13,754 nucleotides of DNA from Methanoregulaceae archaeon (GTDB lineage: Archaea; Halobacteriota; Methanomicrobia; Methanomicrobiales; Methanospirillaceae): the NCBI GenBank assembly GCA_019695435.1, contig JACTVF010000029.1, positions 1 through 13,754 of the forward strand. The letters are read 5' to 3'. The position numbers were made by a program, and so were the translations under genes. The notes beneath the pieces were generated by a model. It ran no database searches. It was not told the origin of the DNA and was given only the letters and a program-made list of their open reading frames with translations. Position 1 is the first letter of the stretch. Each line of letters starts with the position of its first letter. Shown here piece by piece: positions 3,473 through 11,723 of this stretch.

Positions 3473-3976
3473 ATGACAACCCAAGAGAATGCAATGGATG
3501 CATTTGCCGGCGAATCTCAGGCAAACCGGAAGTATCTCGCGTTTTCCGAAAAAGCTGCTGCCGAGGGTTTCAAGAATATTGCAACTCTTTACAAGGCAGC
3601 ATCAGAGGCTGAGGCCATACATGCAAAGAAGCTCTTAAAAGTGCTTGGGGCGATCAACTCAACCGAGAAGAACATAGAAGGAAGCATCGAGGGGGAAACT
3701 CACGAATATACTGCTATGTATCCTGCTTTTGTCAAGGAGGCTGAGACCGAGAAGAAGAGCGACGCGGTGCTTGCGTTTACCCTTGCCATGAAAGCAGAGG
3801 AAGTACATGCAGGCCTGTACAAAAAAGCGCTTGCGGCCCTTAAGGCCGGTCATGATCTCGGCAGGGAGAAGATCTTCCTCTGCCCGGTCTGCGGCAATAT
3901 CGAGATCGGGAAGGTGCCCGACAAATGTCCCATCTGCGGGGTATTCGGGAAACAGTTCCAAGAAATTACCCTTTAA
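3473..3976 (+). CDS. rbr: Rubrerythrin
   Basis: A 167-residue diiron/rubredoxin protein that reduces hydrogen peroxide to water in anaerobes. The N-terminal four-helix ferritin-like domain (about residues 1-130) carries the iron ligands: a Glu near residue 14, EAIH (47-50), Glu in the EGETHEY stretch, and EEVH (109-112). The C-terminal rubredoxin-like domain holds CPVC (137-140) and CPIC (152-155). The length is slightly below that of classical rubrerythrins (about 190 aa). The ATG at 3473 is preferred because the ferritin domain begins there and the TATA box sits 28 bases upstream; the upstream extension has no match. It is monocistronic, and a run of six T (3980-3985) just after the stop is a likely archaeal terminator. 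It belongs functionally with the peroxiredoxin group at 199-1737. Confidence 0.96.
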   Translation: MTTQENAMDAFAGESQANRKYLAFSEKAAAEGFKNIATLYKAASEAEAIHAKKLLKVLGAINSTEKNIEGSIEGETHEYTAMYPAFVKEAETEKKSDAVLAFTLAMKAEEVHAGLYKKALAALKAGHDLGREKIFLCPVCGNIEIGKVPDKCPICGVFGKQFQEITL

Positions 3977-5453: not shown

Positions 5454-5477
5454 CCAACAAAAAACCTCTTCGCATTG

Positions 5478-6632
5478 ATGAGCACCGTCACCGTCTATTC
5501 CACCCTACACTGCCCGTACTGCCGGATGGCAAAAGCGTTTCTCGACAAGCATAAGGTACCCTATACCGCCATCGATGTCGGTGCCGACGCTGCCGCGGCG
5601 CAGAAGATGATTGCACTGTCGGGCCAGCGCGGGGTACCGGTCATCATGGTCGATGATGAGGTCATTATCGGGTTTGATTCCCGGCGGTTGAACGAACTGT
5701 TCGGGACACCGGCCGAAAACGAGCTGTACGATGTCCTTATCGTGGGCGCCGGTCCTGCAGGGTTGACCGCGGGCGTGTACTGCGCCCGGAAACTCCTCAA
5801 AACCCTGATGGTATCCGAAAATATCGGCGGCCAGGCGCTCGAATCCTGGGCGATCGAGAACTACATGGGCTACCGGATGATCACCGGTGAAGACCTGATG
5901 AAGAAATTTGAGGAACAGGTGCACACGTTCGATATCCGGCTTGAACTGGTGAAAGTGAACGGGATCCGCCAGGCTGAGGGAGTTTTTGAGGTCACGACCG
6001 CGTCCGGCCTGCTCCTGAAGGCAAAGAGCCTGATCCTGACGCAGGGTAAGCAGCCGAAGATGCTCGGAGTACCCGGAGAGGAAAAGTATCTCGGGCGGGG
6101 ACTTTCGATCTGCGCAACCTGCGATGGTCCGCTCTACAAAGGAAAGAAGGTGGCCGTTGTCGGTGGCGGGAACTCGGCCGTCCAGACCGCGATCGAGATG
6201 AGCGGGATTGCCTCGTCCGTGAGCCTGATCGCAAGGAACATGATCAAGGCGGATCCGGTGTACGTGAAAAAACTCGAAGCGATCAAAAATATCACGGTGC
6301 ACCTTCACTCGCAGATCGCAGGGTTTTCAGGGGACCAGTTCCTTGACCATATCACGATAACAACGGAGGAGGGGCAGCCCGACCAGAGCATCGGCGTCGA
6401 TGGCGTGTTCATCGAGACCGGCTGGACGCCGAACACGGGTTTCCTTGACGGCCTCGTGGCCTTAAACGACTGCGGCGAGATTGTGGTGGACGTGAACGGC
6501 CGCACGAGCCGGCCCGGGGTCTTTGCCGCCGGGGACGTGACCTCGGTCAAGAGCAAGCAGATCATTATTGCCGCCGGGGACGGGGCGAAGGCTGCGCTTG
6601 AGGCGTACGAGTACGTGATGAAGATGGGGTGA
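5478..6632 (+). CDS. Glutaredoxin-thioredoxin reductase fusion
   Basis: A 384-residue two-domain flavoenzyme. Residues 1-80 are a glutaredoxin/NrdH-like domain with the redox pair CPYC (12-15) and the GVPVIMVDD cis-proline segment. Residues 83-384 are a thioredoxin reductase: FAD-binding GAGPAG (90-95), redox pair CATC (212-215), nucleotide-binding GGGNSA (229-234), and the C-terminal FAD motif GVFAAGDV. The fusion could pass electrons from FAD through CATC to CPYC and on to targets such as the nearby peroxiredoxin (inference). The HRRxxxR motif that selects NADPH in bacterial TrxR is replaced by a segment reading IARNMIK, so NADH or a deazaflavin donor must be considered; methanogen F420-dependent TrxRs are known. 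The ATG at 5478 is favoured over an in-frame TTG at 5475. A run of seven T (6634-6640) follows the stop. Confidence 0.93.
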   Translation: MSTVTVYSTLHCPYCRMAKAFLDKHKVPYTAIDVGADAAAAQKMIALSGQRGVPVIMVDDEVIIGFDSRRLNELFGTPAENELYDVLIVGAGPAGLTAGVYCARKLLKTLMVSENIGGQALESWAIENYMGYRMITGEDLMKKFEEQVHTFDIRLELVKVNGIRQAEGVFEVTTASGLLLKAKSLILTQGKQPKMLGVPGEEKYLGRGLSICATCDGPLYKGKKVAVVGGGNSAVQTAIEMSGIASSVSLIARNMIKADPVYVKKLEAIKNITVHLHSQIAGFSGDQFLDHITITTEEGQPDQSIGVDGVFIETGWTPNTGFLDGLVALNDCGEIVVDVNGRTSRPGVFAAGDVTSVKSKQIIIAAGDGAKAALEAYEYVMKMG

Positions 6633-6633
6633 G

Positions 6634-6640
6634 TTTTTTT
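6634..6640 (+). terminator. T-tract terminator after the Grx-TrxR fusion
   Basis: Seven consecutive T begin one base after the TGA stop, a likely archaeal terminator. It argues against co-transcription with the UDG-like gene downstream. Confidence 0.4.
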
Positions 6641-6712
6641 ACCGCAGCCTCTTGTGCGGGCCGTGGTGGGGATATTAGTGAAGGATCTCTCTCTGAAAAC
6701 TTGACAGAACCT

Positions 6713-6720
6713 CTTTTAAG
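6713..6720 (+). promoter_or_regulatory. TATA-like box for the UDG-like gene
   Basis: CTTTTAAG is centred about 26 bases before the ATG at 6743. This matches the spacing used by other genes here and supports that start over the ATG at 6734 or the GTG at 6629. Confidence 0.35.
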
Positions 6721-6742
6721 ATCTTGGGATGCAATGCTGATT

Positions 6743-7366
6743 ATGACGCCATGTGATAGGTGTTCATTGAAGGATTGGCATTATTATCACCCGATATGCA
6801 TGCCCTCACCTAAAAACATTCAAGGGATTCTAATCTCCCGTGATCCTACAACCGATTTTATTGAACCTTACAAACACTACGATCATGATAAAGGGCTTTT
6901 TCAATACAAAGAAGCACCCCCCACATGGCTCTACAACCGTATTTTATCCTTCATGAAGTATGGATCAAATTCTCACGAATCTATATACTTGCGCAATTTT
7001 CTCAATTCAAACTGTTATTGGACTCATTTTCATAAGTGCCCCACGTTAAAGGGAGATAAAGATTTTCATTTTTCGTACAAGCATGGTAAAGAATGTGCAG
7101 GATTCTGGTTTGATTATGAATATTCCACATATAACCTAAACGGAAAAATCCTCATTCTCTTGGGTCAAGATTTGAAAAAATACTATGATGAGAATCCGGA
7201 CAATCAACTTTTCAAAAATAATACGGTTTTTTTCCTTCCACATCCATCAGGAATAAATATGGGTAGTGGCTGGTCATGGAATCCAAATAAACCTGAAGGG
7301 GATGTGTATAAAAAAGAAATAAAGAAAACGATTGAAGAATTAATGTCGCGAGTTCTGATAAGTTAA
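6743..7366 (+). CDS. Divergent uracil-DNA-glycosylase-superfamily protein
   Basis: About 207 residues, visibly AT-richer than its neighbours. The order of motifs is that of iron-sulfur (family 4-like) uracil-DNA glycosylases. CDRCSL (Cys4, Cys7) comes near the N-terminus, then a hydrophobic strand into the active-site segment GILISRDPTTDF, then a Cys in FHKCPTLKG (Cys99) and one in KECAGFW (Cys118), which complete four possible cluster ligands. These are followed by the strand ILILLGQDL and motif II HPSGIN (167-172). The first catalytic segment differs from the usual GEAPG-type sequence, so uracil excision is uncertain and another base or another role is possible. The ATG at 6743 fits the TATA box at 6713; the open frame continues up to a GTG at 6629 that overlaps the previous gene. 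Composition and position beside a repeat tract suggest recent acquisition. Confidence 0.6.
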   Translation: MTPCDRCSLKDWHYYHPICMPSPKNIQGILISRDPTTDFIEPYKHYDHDKGLFQYKEAPPTWLYNRILSFMKYGSNSHESIYLRNFLNSNCYWTHFHKCPTLKGDKDFHFSYKHGKECAGFWFDYEYSTYNLNGKILILLGQDLKKYYDENPDNQLFKNNTVFFLPHPSGINMGSGWSWNPNKPEGDVYKKEIKKTIEELMSRVLIS

Positions 7367-7449
7367 CGGGTGGCACCGCTACACCCATCCTTTGTTGGCG
7401 GGGGGTTCCATAAAAGGTCAAGAATGGGGAAGTATTAGGTTGTTATACA
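7367..7449. other. Short spacer after the UDG-like gene
   Basis: GGGTG (7368-7372) and CACCC (7382-7386) can form a weak 5-bp hairpin directly after the UDG-like stop. No gene is seen; the repetitive tract starts after this. Confidence 0.3.
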
Positions 7450-8045
7450 TTTCGTGCCGGAAATTTTTGCGCTGTACGAGCTTTCGCGCCAAAAAATACC
7501 GGAAGATCGCTGCGAAATCCGAAAAACTCTCCCCTGTTGCAGGTCTCACGACGGAGAGGCAGACTACCTCCGGAAAAATTCCGACCGATCTTCTCCCGCT
7601 CGTACGGTTCAAAAATTTTTCTGGTCAAAAATTTTTGGTTCGAAAGTTGGTACGACCGGATCTTTTTTGCCGCGAAATTTTTTGGGCCGGATTTTTTCCG
7701 GTTGAAAGTTGAAAAATCCAAAAAATTCCAGCGCGAAAGTTGGAAAAAAGCAAACACTATCCGCAGGATCAGCTGGCTCCCGTCGTGAATCCTGCAATAC
7801 AGACCCGGTACTAGGATCAGAAATCCGTAATTTTTTTGGCCATGAAATTTTCCGGGCCGGAAAATTTTTGCCGCGAAAGTTGAAAATCGCAAAAGTTTTT
7901 GGATTGAAATTTCTCCGACCGTATTTTTTCCGGTTGAAAGTTGAAAAATCCAAAAATGTTCCGGCCGAAAGTTCGAACGGCCCGGATTTTTCCGGACAAA
8001 AATCCAAATTGCCGGAAAATTTTGGAAACGTACAAATTCCCATTG
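7450..8045. repeat. AT/CCGG-rich repetitive non-coding tract
   Basis: About 590 bases built from a small vocabulary: A/T runs of 4-7 bases, CCGG, and the word GAAAGTT. GAAAGTT occurs at 7642, 7704, 7735, 7875, 7936 and 7967, with spacings 62, 31, 140, 61, 31. This shows a unit of about 31 bases and an imperfect duplication of the 7620-7740 block, offset by about 232 bases. Positions 7691-7724 and 7923-7956 are an exact 34-base direct repeat. Mini-hairpins CCGGA-loop-TCCGG occur at 7687-7701 and 7982-7995, and an 11-bp inverted repeat with a 1-base spacer at 7845-7867. Long frames are open on both strands at once because the vocabulary lacks stop codons, so I do not call a gene. The function is unknown; phased A-tracts could make the DNA intrinsically bent. 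Confidence 0.75.
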
Positions 8046-8153
8046 AGAGGTAGGCCGGACAACATGCGCACTTGTACAATTTTCCTTATCCTGCCGCCCC
8101 CCTCTTGCGCCACCAGTCCCCCGAGGGGGACGGGGCGCAGTGCGATGCATTCG

Positions 8154-8208
8154 GTATTACCTGAACAAGAAAACCTACCACCGTATCATCTCTGTATACA
8201 GGTAATAC
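8154..8208. repeat. 10-bp inverted repeat with an internal palindrome
   Basis: GTATTACCTG (8154-8163) is the exact reverse complement of CAGGTAATAC (8199-8208), with 35 bases between them. The right arm overlaps a second palindrome, CTGTATACAG (8192-8201). It sits between the repeat tract and the GC-rich repeat. It could fold into a cruciform or stem-loop RNA, or be the remnant of an element end. Confidence 0.5.
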
Positions 8209-8212
8209 GGCA

Positions 8213-8265
8213 CTATCGCAACCGGGGGGGTGCCCACGCGGCGGGGGCGGCAGCCCCCAAGAGCG
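8213..8265. repeat. GC-rich dispersed repeat, copy 2
   Basis: Same orientation as the copy at 1-50, with the same start CTATCGCAA and the same end AGAGCG. The hairpin core GGGGGC (8243-8248), loop GGCA, GCCCCC (8253-8258) is kept while the loop sequence differs. That suggests the stem is what is conserved. Confidence 0.7.
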
Positions 8266-8628
8266 TTCCCCTCCCCCCAAGTTACCATCGATCTCCCACA
8301 ACAAATCAATTTTTCCGACGTAAAATTCAAAAACGCTCATAGCGGCCTCCGGGTGGCCGATCTCTCCCTCAAATGACCTGTAGGTAGTTCCCGAAAACCC
8401 TGCCCACAGAAGCCCGCTATTATGCAGGTTTAAGTGGCCCTTAAATCGAGGCATTTTTAAAAATAAGCGATTAAATCAGGATTTTCTAGGGGCGTGGACA
8501 TCGGTTCCTGTGGAGATGGGATCCGGGGTCCGGAAACGGAAAATCGGAGACCAGATTGGGCCCGGATTTGGAGGGATGAATGTAGGATTGTGGGAGGTGG
8601 TTTAGACTCCGGTTACTGAATAACACCT

Positions 8629-10098
8629 TTACTCGTTCTTCTTTTGCGACTGCCGGTCCTTCTCCCGGTAACCCTCAAGCAAAACCGTCATGATGTTTTT
8701 CACCGGCTTGTCCGAGTGACTCGCGATGTGGAACTCGCAGAACGGGCAGGAGGTGATCACGATGTCGGCCCCGGTCTTTCTGATCTCTTCACGGCGCTTC
8801 TCCCCGAGGGCTGCCGCCTCTTCGGGTACGCCAGACTTCACCCCACCGCCCGACCCGCAGCAGATGGACGGCATCTCGACAAGATCGATCACCCGCCGGA
8901 TCAGTTGCCGGGGTTCTTCTTTAATATCCTGCCCCCGCATCAGGTGGCAGGGATCGTGGTAGGTCGCCTTTATTGGCAGACGTGCGGGAGGTTCGATGCC
9001 GTACTTCGTGAGCAGCTGGTTGATGTCAAGCACCTCAAACGGCGTCACGTAATCGTGCTTGAGGGTCGAACCGCAGCCGGCGCACATCGTCATCACGGTA
9101 TCGATCCCGCGTGATTGGAACGTGTCGATGTTACGCTGCTTGAGCGAATCAACGATTGCCAGCTGGCCGGTCCGTATCAGGGGCGATCCGCAGCAGATCT
9201 GGTCCCGGGGTATGATCACCCGGATGCCGTTTCTTTTGAGGACTTCGATCGCATCGAGTGCTGACTGCTGCTGGCGCATGTTGTACATGCAGCCGACAAA
9301 GAATCCCACGGTTGCCTTGACCGGCCCGACCGGCTCGATCCTTTCACCGACCTGCTCCATGAATGTCGGCGCGGTCCGGGTGACGCTGCGGCCGGTCTCT
9401 TTGATGAGTGCAGCGACTTCCCGGTGCCGGGGAAGCGTGAAGCCCCGCTGGTTTGCGAGCGCCCGGAGTTTCTCGATCGCTTTCCCCGGGATCCTGATCT
9501 TCTTCGGGCAGGCCTTGAAGCAGGCCTGGCAGCTTGTACAGTTAAACAGGCCGTCCCGGATTGCGTCCGGCACCCGGTCGCCGGTATCCCGCGGGTCGAG
9601 TATCAGGCGCATATCCTGCCGCATAGCGGTCGGCCCAAGGAAGCTGGTCACGTCCATGGCCGGGCAGACCGAGACGCAGGCAAGGCACTCGATGCAGTCC
9701 CGGAGCGGTTTTATCTCGTCGATCTCTGCTTTCGTGGGAAGCCGGAGCTCCGGCCCGCACGCCGGTTTCAGCGATGCAATCGCTTCTATTTTCGGGAGAA
9801 GATCCACGATCAGATCCTGTTTGACCGGGAGGTTTAAGGGAGTAATCGTGATGCCGTCTACTGCCTCCTCCATGCAGGCCAGCACCGGTTCTCCATTTAC
9901 CCTCACTGCACAGCTGCCGCACTGCCCGGAGCTGCAGCAGTACCGGTACGCGAGCGTGGGATCGATCTGATCGTGGATCGCGTGCAGGATATGGAGGACC
10001 CGGGCGCCGTCGTTTGCGCTGACCGTGTACGATTGAAGCCGGGGTTCCCGATCCGTTTTCGGGTCAAAGCGTTGGACGTTTACGTGCAGTTCCTTCAT
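8629..10098 (-). CDS. tfrB: CoM/CoB thiol:fumarate reductase, iron-sulfur subunit B
   Basis: A 489-residue cytoplasmic subunit that oxidises CoM-SH plus CoB-SH to the heterodisulfide and feeds electrons to fumarate bound on TfrA. Domains in order: a plant-type [2Fe-2S] ferredoxin (CCSSGQCGSC, residues 54-63, with Cys75); two [4Fe-4S] sites, CIECLACVSVCP (135-146) and CTSCQACFKACP (187-198); and two CCG domains like those of heterodisulfide reductase HdrB (Cys270, CC302-303, CAGC 339-342; then Cys384, CC413-414, CPFC 451-454), the expected thiol/disulfide site. The fusion of an SdhB-like half to an HdrB-like half distinguishes TfrB from ordinary succinate dehydrogenase subunits. Its ATG overlaps the tfrA stop by 4 bases (ATGA), indicating translational coupling. 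All cluster cysteines look intact. Confidence 0.95.
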   Translation of the reverse strand: MKELHVNVQRFDPKTDREPRLQSYTVSANDGARVLHILHAIHDQIDPTLAYRYCCSSGQCGSCAVRVNGEPVLACMEEAVDGITITPLNLPVKQDLIVDLLPKIEAIASLKPACGPELRLPTKAEIDEIKPLRDCIECLACVSVCPAMDVTSFLGPTAMRQDMRLILDPRDTGDRVPDAIRDGLFNCTSCQACFKACPKKIRIPGKAIEKLRALANQRGFTLPRHREVAALIKETGRSVTRTAPTFMEQVGERIEPVGPVKATVGFFVGCMYNMRQQQSALDAIEVLKRNGIRVIIPRDQICCGSPLIRTGQLAIVDSLKQRNIDTFQSRGIDTVMTMCAGCGSTLKHDYVTPFEVLDINQLLTKYGIEPPARLPIKATYHDPCHLMRGQDIKEEPRQLIRRVIDLVEMPSICCGSGGGVKSGVPEEAAALGEKRREEIRKTGADIVITSCPFCEFHIASHSDKPVKNIMTVLLEGYREKDRQSQKKNE

Positions 10099-11723
10099 GC
10101 TGCCACCCTACGTCTCTCGATCCCCTCGCGGTTCTTTGAGATGTACGTGTGGCCGTACGGCGAATGTGCCGCGTCCCATTCCTGTGGAATGTCGACCCGC
10201 ATGTGAGCGCCCCGGGACTCGGGCCGGATCAGCGCCGAGCGGCAGATGAGCGATGCGGTCAGGCACATGTTCTCGACGATGCAGCAGTCCGCAAGGTTCT
10301 TTTGCGATGCGGCCCTGAGCGGCGCTTGCATGAGCCGGTTGATGACCGCAAGCGTGCTCATGAGCCCCGCTTCGTCGCGGAAGATCCCGGCGCCCTTCCA
10401 CATCGCCTGCTGAAGTCCGGTCCGCACAGCCGCCGGGTTATCTGTTCCAGAGAGGAACCGGTCGAGCCGCTCTTCCTGACGGGCGATCTGGGCCGGGTCG
10501 ATCTTTTTTGCCCGTTTTTCTGCCTTCGCGGCAAATTCGCCGGCCCGTTTCCCGAAGACCTGCGTGTCGGCAAGGGCGTTTCCACCCAGCCGGTTTGCGC
10601 CCTGCACGCCACCGGCCGATTCGCCGCAGGCAAAGAGTCCCGAAAGTGTTGTCCTGCACTCGGGCGTTATCTTCAGACCCCCCATGATGTGATGGGCCGT
10701 CGGGGCGACCTCCATGGGCTCGGTCCGGATGTCCACGCCGAACTTGAGGAACTGTTCGAGCATCACCGGCAGCCGGGTCTCGATCTGCTCCTTTGGCAGG
10801 TGGGTCACGTCGAGCCAGACCCCGCCCCTTTCCGTGCCCCTGCAGTTTGCGATCTCGGTCGCGATCGCCCGGGCGACCACGTCCCGGGTCGAGAGTTCCA
10901 TCCGGTCGGGATCGTATTTTTTCATGAACCGTTCGCCGAGCCGGTTCTTCAGGATACCCCCCTCGCCCCGGACCGCCTCGGTGATGAGCCGGCCCCGGGC
11001 GTCGTACGGGTATACGGCACCGGTCGGGTGGAACTGGACCATCTCCATGTCGATAAGTTCTGCTCCCGCCCGGTACCCCATCGCAAACCCGTCGCCGGTC
11101 CCGCTGGATGAATTGGTCGAGATATCGTAGACCCGGGACCCGCCGCCGGTCGCGAGGATGGTGCTGTCTGCTGTGAGGATGACGATTGACCCGTTCTCGT
11201 CGAGAGCAATGGCGCCTGCGACCCGGTTGCCGTCCTTTAGCAGATCGATTACGGTCACTTCCTGAAGTTTAGTGACACCGGAAGAATCGAGCTGCTCGAC
11301 CAGTGTCATCATCATCTCGTGGCCGGTCCGGTCCCCCGCGTAGCAGGTCCGGGGGAACCGCTGGCCCCCGAACGGCCGCTGGGCGACCTCGTTTTTGTCC
11401 GTGAAGTCAAAGACCGCACCCCACCGGATCAGGTCGTCCATGCGCAACGGGGACTCCTGCACGAGGATCCTGACGAGCTCCGGGTCATTGAGGTATGCCC
11501 CCCCTTTGAGCGTATCCTCATAGTGGATCTCGCAGGAGTCCTCTTTTCTCAGCACCGCGTTGTAACCTCCCTCGGCCATGGGGGTGCACCCGCCTTTTCC
11601 CGCGATGGTTTTTGTGACGAGCACTGTGTCGCCATACGGGGCCGCCTCTATCGCCGCCCGTACCCCGGCGCCGCCGCTGCCGATCACAAGCACGTGGCAG
11701 TCCACCACGTCGTCTGCATGCAT
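10095..11723 (-). CDS. tfrA: CoM/CoB thiol:fumarate reductase, flavoprotein subunit A
   Basis: A 542-residue FAD subunit of the SdhA/FrdA family that reduces fumarate to succinate in the cytoplasm; methanogens use this in an incomplete reductive TCA branch for biosynthesis. It shows the dinucleotide-binding GSGGAG (15-20), the substrate/FAD segments HPTG (232-235) and TEAVRGEGG (248-256), the RDVVARAI segment (280-287), HHIMGG (344-349) and NRLGGNAL (377-384). The His that carries covalent FAD in bacterial FrdA/SdhA aligns with Cys46 in GGCTPMAEGG, so FAD is probably non-covalent. L-aspartate oxidase is a relative, but the partner tfrB settles the assignment. The ATG at 11723 has a TATA-like element 28-37 bases upstream, giving a very short leader. 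It is the first gene of a two-gene operon and divergent from aspartate kinase. Confidence 0.95.
   Translation of the reverse strand: MHADDVVDCHVLVIGSGGAGVRAAIEAAPYGDTVLVTKTIAGKGGCTPMAEGGYNAVLRKEDSCEIHYEDTLKGGAYLNDPELVRILVQESPLRMDDLIRWGAVFDFTDKNEVAQRPFGGQRFPRTCYAGDRTGHEMMMTLVEQLDSSGVTKLQEVTVIDLLKDGNRVAGAIALDENGSIVILTADSTILATGGGSRVYDISTNSSSGTGDGFAMGYRAGAELIDMEMVQFHPTGAVYPYDARGRLITEAVRGEGGILKNRLGERFMKKYDPDRMELSTRDVVARAIATEIANCRGTERGGVWLDVTHLPKEQIETRLPVMLEQFLKFGVDIRTEPMEVAPTAHHIMGGLKITPECRTTLSGLFACGESAGGVQGANRLGGNALADTQVFGKRAGEFAAKAEKRAKKIDPAQIARQEERLDRFLSGTDNPAAVRTGLQQAMWKGAGIFRDEAGLMSTLAVINRLMQAPLRAASQKNLADCCIVENMCLTASLICRSALIRPESRGAHMRVDIPQEWDAAHSPYGHTYISKNREGIERRRVAA

Follow-up and report, generated by a model that had tools for sequence, protein, structure and literature searches.

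A low-copy dispersed non-coding element of about 550 bases, with two homologous halves, in Methanoregula genomes

The tract and its surroundings

The window, by which we mean the entire analyzed stretch of 13,754 nucleotides, is contig C259 of the 508-contig assembly of a Methanoregulaceae archaeon (genome G000). It carries a glutaredoxin-thioredoxin reductase fusion gene (TrxR), a low-GC open reading frame, the repetitive tract under study and, on the opposite strand, two fumarate-reductase-like genes (Table 1). The original prediction considered the tract as a possible vehicle that brought in the neighboring UDG-like reading frame. This idea is not borne out, as in the related genome G032 the TrxR/TfrB locus likewise carries the tract without such an ORF listed; a comparison of window positions 6600-7460 with that locus gave a match over the first 41 bases only.

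The intergenic DNA on the other side of the tract contains further repeats. A separate, GC-rich dispersed repeat is far more abundant (it accounts for 50 of the 54 matches that region 8040-8640 has in its own genome), and nested in it is a hairpin-like insert with inverted ends that some copies seem to lack (e.g. G000:C385, where the two parts lie ∼10 bp apart). The long intergenic module that follows is conserved at the corresponding locus of G003, G010 and G032 and is also dispersed elsewhere (G000:C192, 85%; C401, 79%).

Table 1. Features of the window around the tract; identity is the mean among four full copies of the element.
Feature	Position	Strand	Identity	Remarks
TrxR, glutaredoxin-thioredoxin reductase fusion	5475-6632	+		
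Low-GC ORF between TrxR and tract	6629-7366	+		37.5% GC; UDG match PF03167, E=3.3e-4, below cut-off
Outer left sequence CGTGCCGGAAATTTTTG	7453-7469	+		versions in 4 of 6 A-type copies, absent from C246 and g10; a resembling stretch at the right end
Left arm	7473-7526	+	0.84	conserved; opens with inverted unit GCTTTCGCGCC (consensus AACTTTCGCGCC)
Spacer 1	7527-7547	.	0.42	free sequence; 22-24 nt in 8 of 11 copies (one anchor misplaced, two copies without anchors)
Core 1 ACGACGGAG	7548-7556	-	0.92	reverse complement of CTCCGTCGT
Spacer 2	7557-7582	.	0.43	free sequence; measured length 28-29 nt in 10 of 11 copies (one without anchors)
Conserved block GACCGATC...GCTCGTACGG	7583-7609	+	0.83	
Array 1, ∼31-bp units	7610-7749	+	0.79	GAAA(G/T)TT at 7642, 7674, 7704, 7735; one unit short of the full G032 copies (32-bp alignment gap)
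Spacer 3	7750-7780	.	0.51	32-33 nt in 7 copies with both anchors (4 of 11 without)
Core 2 CGTCGTGAATCC	7781-7792	+	0.95	consensus CGTCGTAAAT
Spacer 4	7793-7821	.	0.59	33-34 columns in the four full copies; 21-45 elsewhere, with a loose end anchor
Array 2 and right end	7822-8026	+	0.80	GAAA(G/T)TT at 7844, 7875, 7906, 7936, 7967
Offset-232 repeat span (7664-7745 and 7896-7977)	7664-7977	+		belongs to the two-half structure
GC-rich dispersed repeat CGCCCCCCTCTTGCG...CAGCCCCCAAGAGCG	8092-8268			
∼55-bp hairpin-like insert	8154-8208			inverted ends GTATTACCTG / CAGGTAATAC
Long intergenic module	8310-8620			opens with degenerate core motif TTTTTCCGACGTAAAA
Two fumarate-reductase-like genes	8629-11723	-		presumably TfrB and TfrA

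The repeat geometry on which the original prediction was based holds exactly. The heptamer GAAAGTT starts at 7642, 7704, 7735, 7875, 7936 and 7967, giving the claimed spacings of 62, 31, 140, 61 and 31; the 34-base identity between 7691-7724 and 7923-7956 ends at these positions on either side, and the claimed offset of 232-233 is seen in the 82-bp blocks at 7664 and 7896, which are 80% identical at an offset of 232. These positions and spacings are far above chance: six heptamers compare with a mean of 0.15 and a maximum of 2 in 1000 dinucleotide shuffles of the tract, and the longest exact repeat (34 bases) with a shuffle maximum of 17. Identity autocorrelation (200 shuffles) peaks at lags 31 and 232 (z of 7.5 each), 62 (5.9) and 15 (5.0), the latter being the half-period, with no rise at lag 10. 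Neighboring GAAA(G/T)TT anchors follow each other at steps of 32, 30 and 31 bp in array 1 and of 31, 31, 30 and 31 bp in array 2. Tandem Repeats Finder reported no 31-bp array in the window, but picked one up next to the core of G032 C87 and of G000 C329, which are sister copies.

Copies of the element, their halves and their loci

The tract represents a copy of a dispersed, low-copy non-coding element of about 550 bases, present at 11 places in four of 39 Methanoregula genomes (four in G000, four in G032, one in G010 and two in G003). The suggestion of a genome-specific repeat family was thus right in substance, with four places in the genome of origin and further ones in G032, G010 and G003. 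BLAST searches with the tract against its own genome and relatives, a check of the kind that the original prediction had proposed, returned homologues in G000 (C360, 78% over 295 bp, and C329), in G032 (C246, C193 and C87, which cover almost the entire tract at 70-74%, and C81) and in G010 (C1:203745-204153). A consensus query against the 39 genomes of the genus retrieved the same set with stronger scores, the other matches being 20-80 bp long with E of at least 4e-4. Ten genomes were also searched with a model of the 5' half based on sequence alone, which added G003:C63 (E=1.8e-9) and G000:C500 (E=1.1e-5), and a profile applied to the fetched loci also backed both of these together with G003:C56 (E=4e-14 to 4e-9). 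The same model gave weaker matches in five of the six other genomes (G027, from 1.1e-4; G020, G034, G062 and G033, 0.006-0.03), of which G027 and, in less depth, G020 were examined further.

The pattern of three GAAAKTT at 29-34-bp steps occurs in five of the 232 genomes of the order (nine matches in G000, 13 in G032, three in G003, one in G010 and one stray in G080), and its backward-read control gave three matches. The G080 match and that in G003:C66 were left out of the copy count; the latter (3765-3835) is an almost perfect tandem repeat with a 34-bp period and unrelated sequence that the pattern picked up. In the G000:C500 copy (L127, at the contig start near acs1) the array is cut off by a sequence beginning TGTAGTATCCCGAAATCATTTGACAACATCCC, which by eye resembles an inserted mobile element. 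The four carrier genomes are the nearest relatives by both TfrB (80-87% identity to the window protein vs at most 77% for others) and acyl-CoA synthetase (87-94% vs at most 82%), a kinship that is based on these two proteins rather than on a species tree.

An origin from a virus or plasmid was considered and rejected. One exact 18-mer of the tract matched a single IMG/VR contig, inside an unrelated ORF and with no further similarity, and a second 18-mer had no IMG/VR match. The three-unit pattern was found in at least 120 stretches of viral contigs, no viral locus was among the best 60 rows of the tract-profile search of the fetched loci (rows listed down to E of ∼1e-5), and blastn of one full copy returned nothing among phage or plasmid records.

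A full copy consists of two homologous halves, each combining a short core (CGACGGAG or CGTCGTAAAT) with degenerate ∼31-bp units. Within a half, a GCGAAA...GGAAAAA arm is followed by a spacer, the core, another spacer and about four to six units, part of which are degenerate. The orientation of the cores is opposed, half 1 having ACGACGGAG and half 2 CGTCGTAAAT. The homology is also evident from the 5'-half model, which within one copy hits the 3' half as well (e.g. G032:C193:13887-14102, E=5e-9). The distance from one half start to the other is 252 bp in each of the three full copies of G032 and 221 bp in the window, and the array self-matches are 265-266 bp apart in the G032 copies and 232-233 bp in the window, the shorter offset being due to the one unit that the window copy is missing.

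The element is patchily distributed among orthologous loci. Between TrxR and TfrB it is found in G000 and G032 and is absent from G003 and G010, while the module downstream of ∼8270 is common to all four. Another 18 loci with both genes have gaps of ∼51-133 bp (14 loci) or ∼730-1000 bp (four loci) between aligned ends, and none of them was among the best 60 rows of the tract-profile search. Downstream (3') of the aspartate aminotransferase gene the tract is present in G000 and absent from the three others read (G003, G010 and G034). A 3' remnant of this gene lies in front of the G032 C193 copy; the gene body was not found in the 77%-complete G032 assembly. The acs1-acs2 gap is ∼990 bp with the tract in G003 and ∼320 bp without it in G010, as compared to 380 bp in G009 and 92-169 bp (matched ends) in 17 other species. 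The absence of the element from several orthologous sites means that it is not essential there. A tree of the 5' region grouped copies across genomes (C360 with C193, support 93; C329 with C81, support 100), and several copies therefore probably predate the split of G000 and G032. Gene conversion inside genomes, hinted at by raw identities, was dropped as the tree gave it no support.

Conservation of units, cores and spacers

Among the four full copies the arrays, arms and cores are 79-95% identical and the spacers 42-59% (0.38 for the 3' flank). The mean identity is 0.81 for blocks and 0.51 for spacers, the values expected from base composition alone being 0.26 and 0.25, and no other circular shift of the segment labels (590, or 591 including the unshifted one) equaled the difference. 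The segments were drawn on the same alignment as was first scored, with g10 and C360 outside the four-copy segment scores. Four further pairs, compared using anchors of our own choice, show this contrast in weaker form: blocks vs spacers are 0.80 vs 0.66 in C329-C81 (Fisher P=0.0035) and 0.79 vs 0.60 in C500-G003:C63 (P=0.015), and blocks are likewise more conserved in C360-C193 (P=0.013) and g10-C246 (P=2e-6). Only the first two of these pairs are fully independent, as C193 and C246 helped to draw the segments. There are exceptions: array 2 of C329-C81 reaches just 0.72, near its spacers (0.62-0.71), and core 1 is kept at two of eight positions in g10-C246.

The units are kept one by one, as those of the same index are 0.78 identical among copies (51 comparisons) and those of different index only 0.49 (408 comparisons). 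This also agrees with the prediction that the tract is not a CRISPR array: its units are non-identical within a copy and individually conserved among copies. The better conservation of blocks than of spacers suggests selection rather than decay, which disfavors the decayed element offered as another possibility at the outset, since units and cores outlast the spacers. Overall, the tract very likely represents a real dispersed non-coding element with constrained blocks, and the element probably does something. As a point against, clustered conservation is likewise seen in the neighboring intergenic module.

Two other candidate signatures were tried and abandoned. Length constraint as evidence of function was dropped, as substitutions per indel in the tract are no higher than in the flanking intergenic DNA; the near-constant spacing is no proof of constraint because this flanking DNA is also indel-poor. 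A↔T swapping within runs accounts for 13% of differences in the tract vs 14% in the flank.

A protein-coding gene was rejected based on stops, the absence of a Pfam match and gap lengths, in keeping with the initial reading of the tract as not convincingly coding. Its two long minus-strand frames had no Pfam match at E 0.01, every frame of the stretch tested is stopped in nine of 11 copies (the other two have a stop-free frame), and gaps between full copies include ones of 1, 2 and 32 bases.

Possible meanings of the element

Our confidence in any mechanism is much lower than in the reality of the element. The reading that we tentatively favor is that of a DNA-level array of protein-binding sites, in which the constraint would act on the DNA itself. 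The units and cores would form an ordered array of sites to which one or more DNA-binding proteins would bind, and the bound proteins may assemble a nucleoprotein complex, candidate purposes of which are chromosome organization or segregation, or the moving of the element itself. In favor of this reading are the restriction of the dispersed copies to four related genomes, the two-half architecture, the conservation of blocks over spacers and of each unit individually, folding that is about equal on both strands, the lack of an Rfam match and the behavior of the core motif in the genus (the last three are described below). Intrinsic bending, another of the initial suggestions, is not supported for the window copy, whose curvature was equaled or exceeded by 82% of 100 shuffles; curvature predicted from wedge values exceeded that of shuffles in two of six copies tested (C329 and C81). 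The power of A/T runs at 10-11 bp, of interest for the suggested histone-phased DNA, is raised in five of six copies (P 0.003-0.05; P=0.20 for the window copy).

It is possible, albeit rather less probable, that the element is a non-autonomous mobile element (MITE-like) whose arrays would be putative sites for a transposase supplied in trans. This would account for its presence and absence at orthologous sites (aspartate aminotransferase, TrxR-TfrB, acs1-acs2) and for the left end, which by our reading of the alignment opens with an inverted unit resembling the right end. On the other hand, no target-site duplication was found (the flanks of tract-free sites being too diverged for a base-by-base alignment), the ends are inexact, with C246 and g10 of the six A-type copies starting ∼20 bp further in, and several copies are old, as judged from the cross-genome groupings in the tree. 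The number of places per genome (just one to four) and the lack of a match of one full copy in plasmid or phage records also speak against mobility.

We consider it unlikely that the element is a gene for a large structured non-coding RNA of ∼550 nt with two pseudo-repeated halves, even though free spacers between conserved blocks look like RNA conservation. Folding of single copies beats shuffles on both strands (z of -2.2 to -5.1 on the plus and -1.8 to -3.9 on the minus strand), being more negative on the plus strand in six of six copies, which are related and not independent. Spacer 3 has a mean hairpin z of -2.0 in seven copies, with a clear hairpin in four of the seven that have both anchors, the window copy not among them. 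Doubly compensated pairs are somewhat more common on the plus strand (8 of 55 and 6 of 79) than on the minus strand (5 of 56 and 4 of 70). However, the consensus folding excess over column shuffles is alike on both strands (z of -4.0 and -5.6 on plus, -5.6 and -4.0 on minus, values inflated because column shuffles break A/T runs), and the covariation term (1.38 and 0.56 on plus, -0.25 and 1.06 on minus) stays within ∼1.5 SD of 60 column shuffles, a test of low power with four sequences. Folding about equal on both strands with no favorable covariation term is as for DNA dyads and counts in favor of the binding-site array. In addition, Rfam gave no match at the gathering score in the window or in the other tracts (20 loci yielded three tRNAs only; allowing E up to 1 gave three sub-cut-off matches within 7360-8640, E 0.1-0.6), copies differ by whole units, and no common TATA-like box was apparent by eye upstream of the copies. 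A functionless, decaying compound minisatellite spread by rearrangement, as might be read from the satellite-like combination of 31-bp units with a larger duplication and from the adjacent intergenic DNA rich in other dispersed repeats, is improbable, as the units retain their individual identity and the blocks surpass the spacers in the four further pairs.

The distribution of the core beyond the element also counts in favor of the array of binding sites. Read as CTCCGTCGTARA, the core has 77 matches in 26 of the 39 genomes of the genus vs 18 for the backward pattern (47 vs 14 without the repeat-rich G001, G004 and G011), and is not enriched outside the genus (55 vs 91 in the remaining 193 genomes of the order). 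The contexts of these 77 sites are mostly sequence unlike the tract. A tandem array (period 18-60, within 350 bp) accompanies eight of the 77 vs none of 59 control windows, the latter having been taken from the flanks of two gene loci and containing coding DNA as well. Of the eight, two represent the present element (G032 C87 and G000 C329) and two belong to one element of G062, in which two cores 281 bp apart are set among units of 25 bp (TCAACCAGACCTTGATTGAAAATTTT), close to a tRNA; the unit around the core measures 25-26 bp in G024. In all, arrays of a different kind, with a period of 25-26 or 32 bp, surround this core or one like it in three other species. Evidence for hairpins next to the core is weak (P=0.04 downstream and 0.22 upstream for 75 of the 77 sites, in ∼22 context groups, with a site able to fall in more than one).

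A different element in G027 (C54, with relatives in C46, 80%, and C45, 79% over 109 bp) has a core that holds TTCGACGG and looks by eye like a hairpin loop; the core is flanked on either side by five A/T runs (ten in total) that follow each other at steps of 29-34 bp. The power of A/T runs at 10-11 bp is not raised in the G027, G062 and G024 elements, and the 25-26 bp period of the latter two, which is not a whole number of helical turns, argues against one shared same-face rule. At L338 and L339 (G034:C3 and G011:C234), CCGG-separated A/T runs at ∼29-34 bp adjoin TTCTACGGAGG and a methyltransferase-like reading frame, and are possibly another member of a core-plus-array class. Yet another repeat family, of many copies, occurs at L372-L377 (G004), L389-L397 (G001) and L398-L404 (G011), with a constant part TTCTCCGTCGTAGA often followed by AATTCCGGCACA repeats.

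A speculative and, in our judgment, doubtful generalization would be a genus-specific class of chromosomal arrays with the near-constant core CTCCGTCGTARA, in which the flanking unit and its period (25-26, 31 or 32 bp) would be reinvented per lineage. Such arrays may serve as small centromere- or anchor-like nucleoprotein sites, with a putative protein partner co-evolving with the unit. Archaeal sites for chromosome segregation and long-range organization are poorly known and, to our knowledge, ordered non-coding elements with selected units and free spacers have seldom been described in Archaea. If the class holds genus-wide, a comparison of a few species would offer a natural experiment on the co-evolution of DNA-binding arrays and their proteins. 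Even as a mobile relic, the element would be a repeat family without a description in the literature searched; among the matches listed, titles and beginnings of abstracts mention no such element, subscription papers being mostly outside the search.

Among known kinds of systems, the element shares with MITEs its short, non-coding, dispersed and intergenic nature and its patchiness at orthologous loci, and its ends may likewise be partly inverted, while it differs from them in its very low copy number, its conserved ordered internal array and the absence of a detected target-site duplication. The intergenic, palindromic and multi-locus character of REP/BIME repeats is also found here, albeit in an element of ∼550 bp with a two-half design and few copies. 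With CRISPR arrays it has in common a regular short period, whereas its units are non-identical, each being conserved across copies. Iteron, centromere and partition-site arrays, a likeness of kind rather than of compared sequences, similarly combine ordered, degenerate, regular repeats with a special core, while the element occurs in several chromosomal copies per genome and is not universal in the genus.
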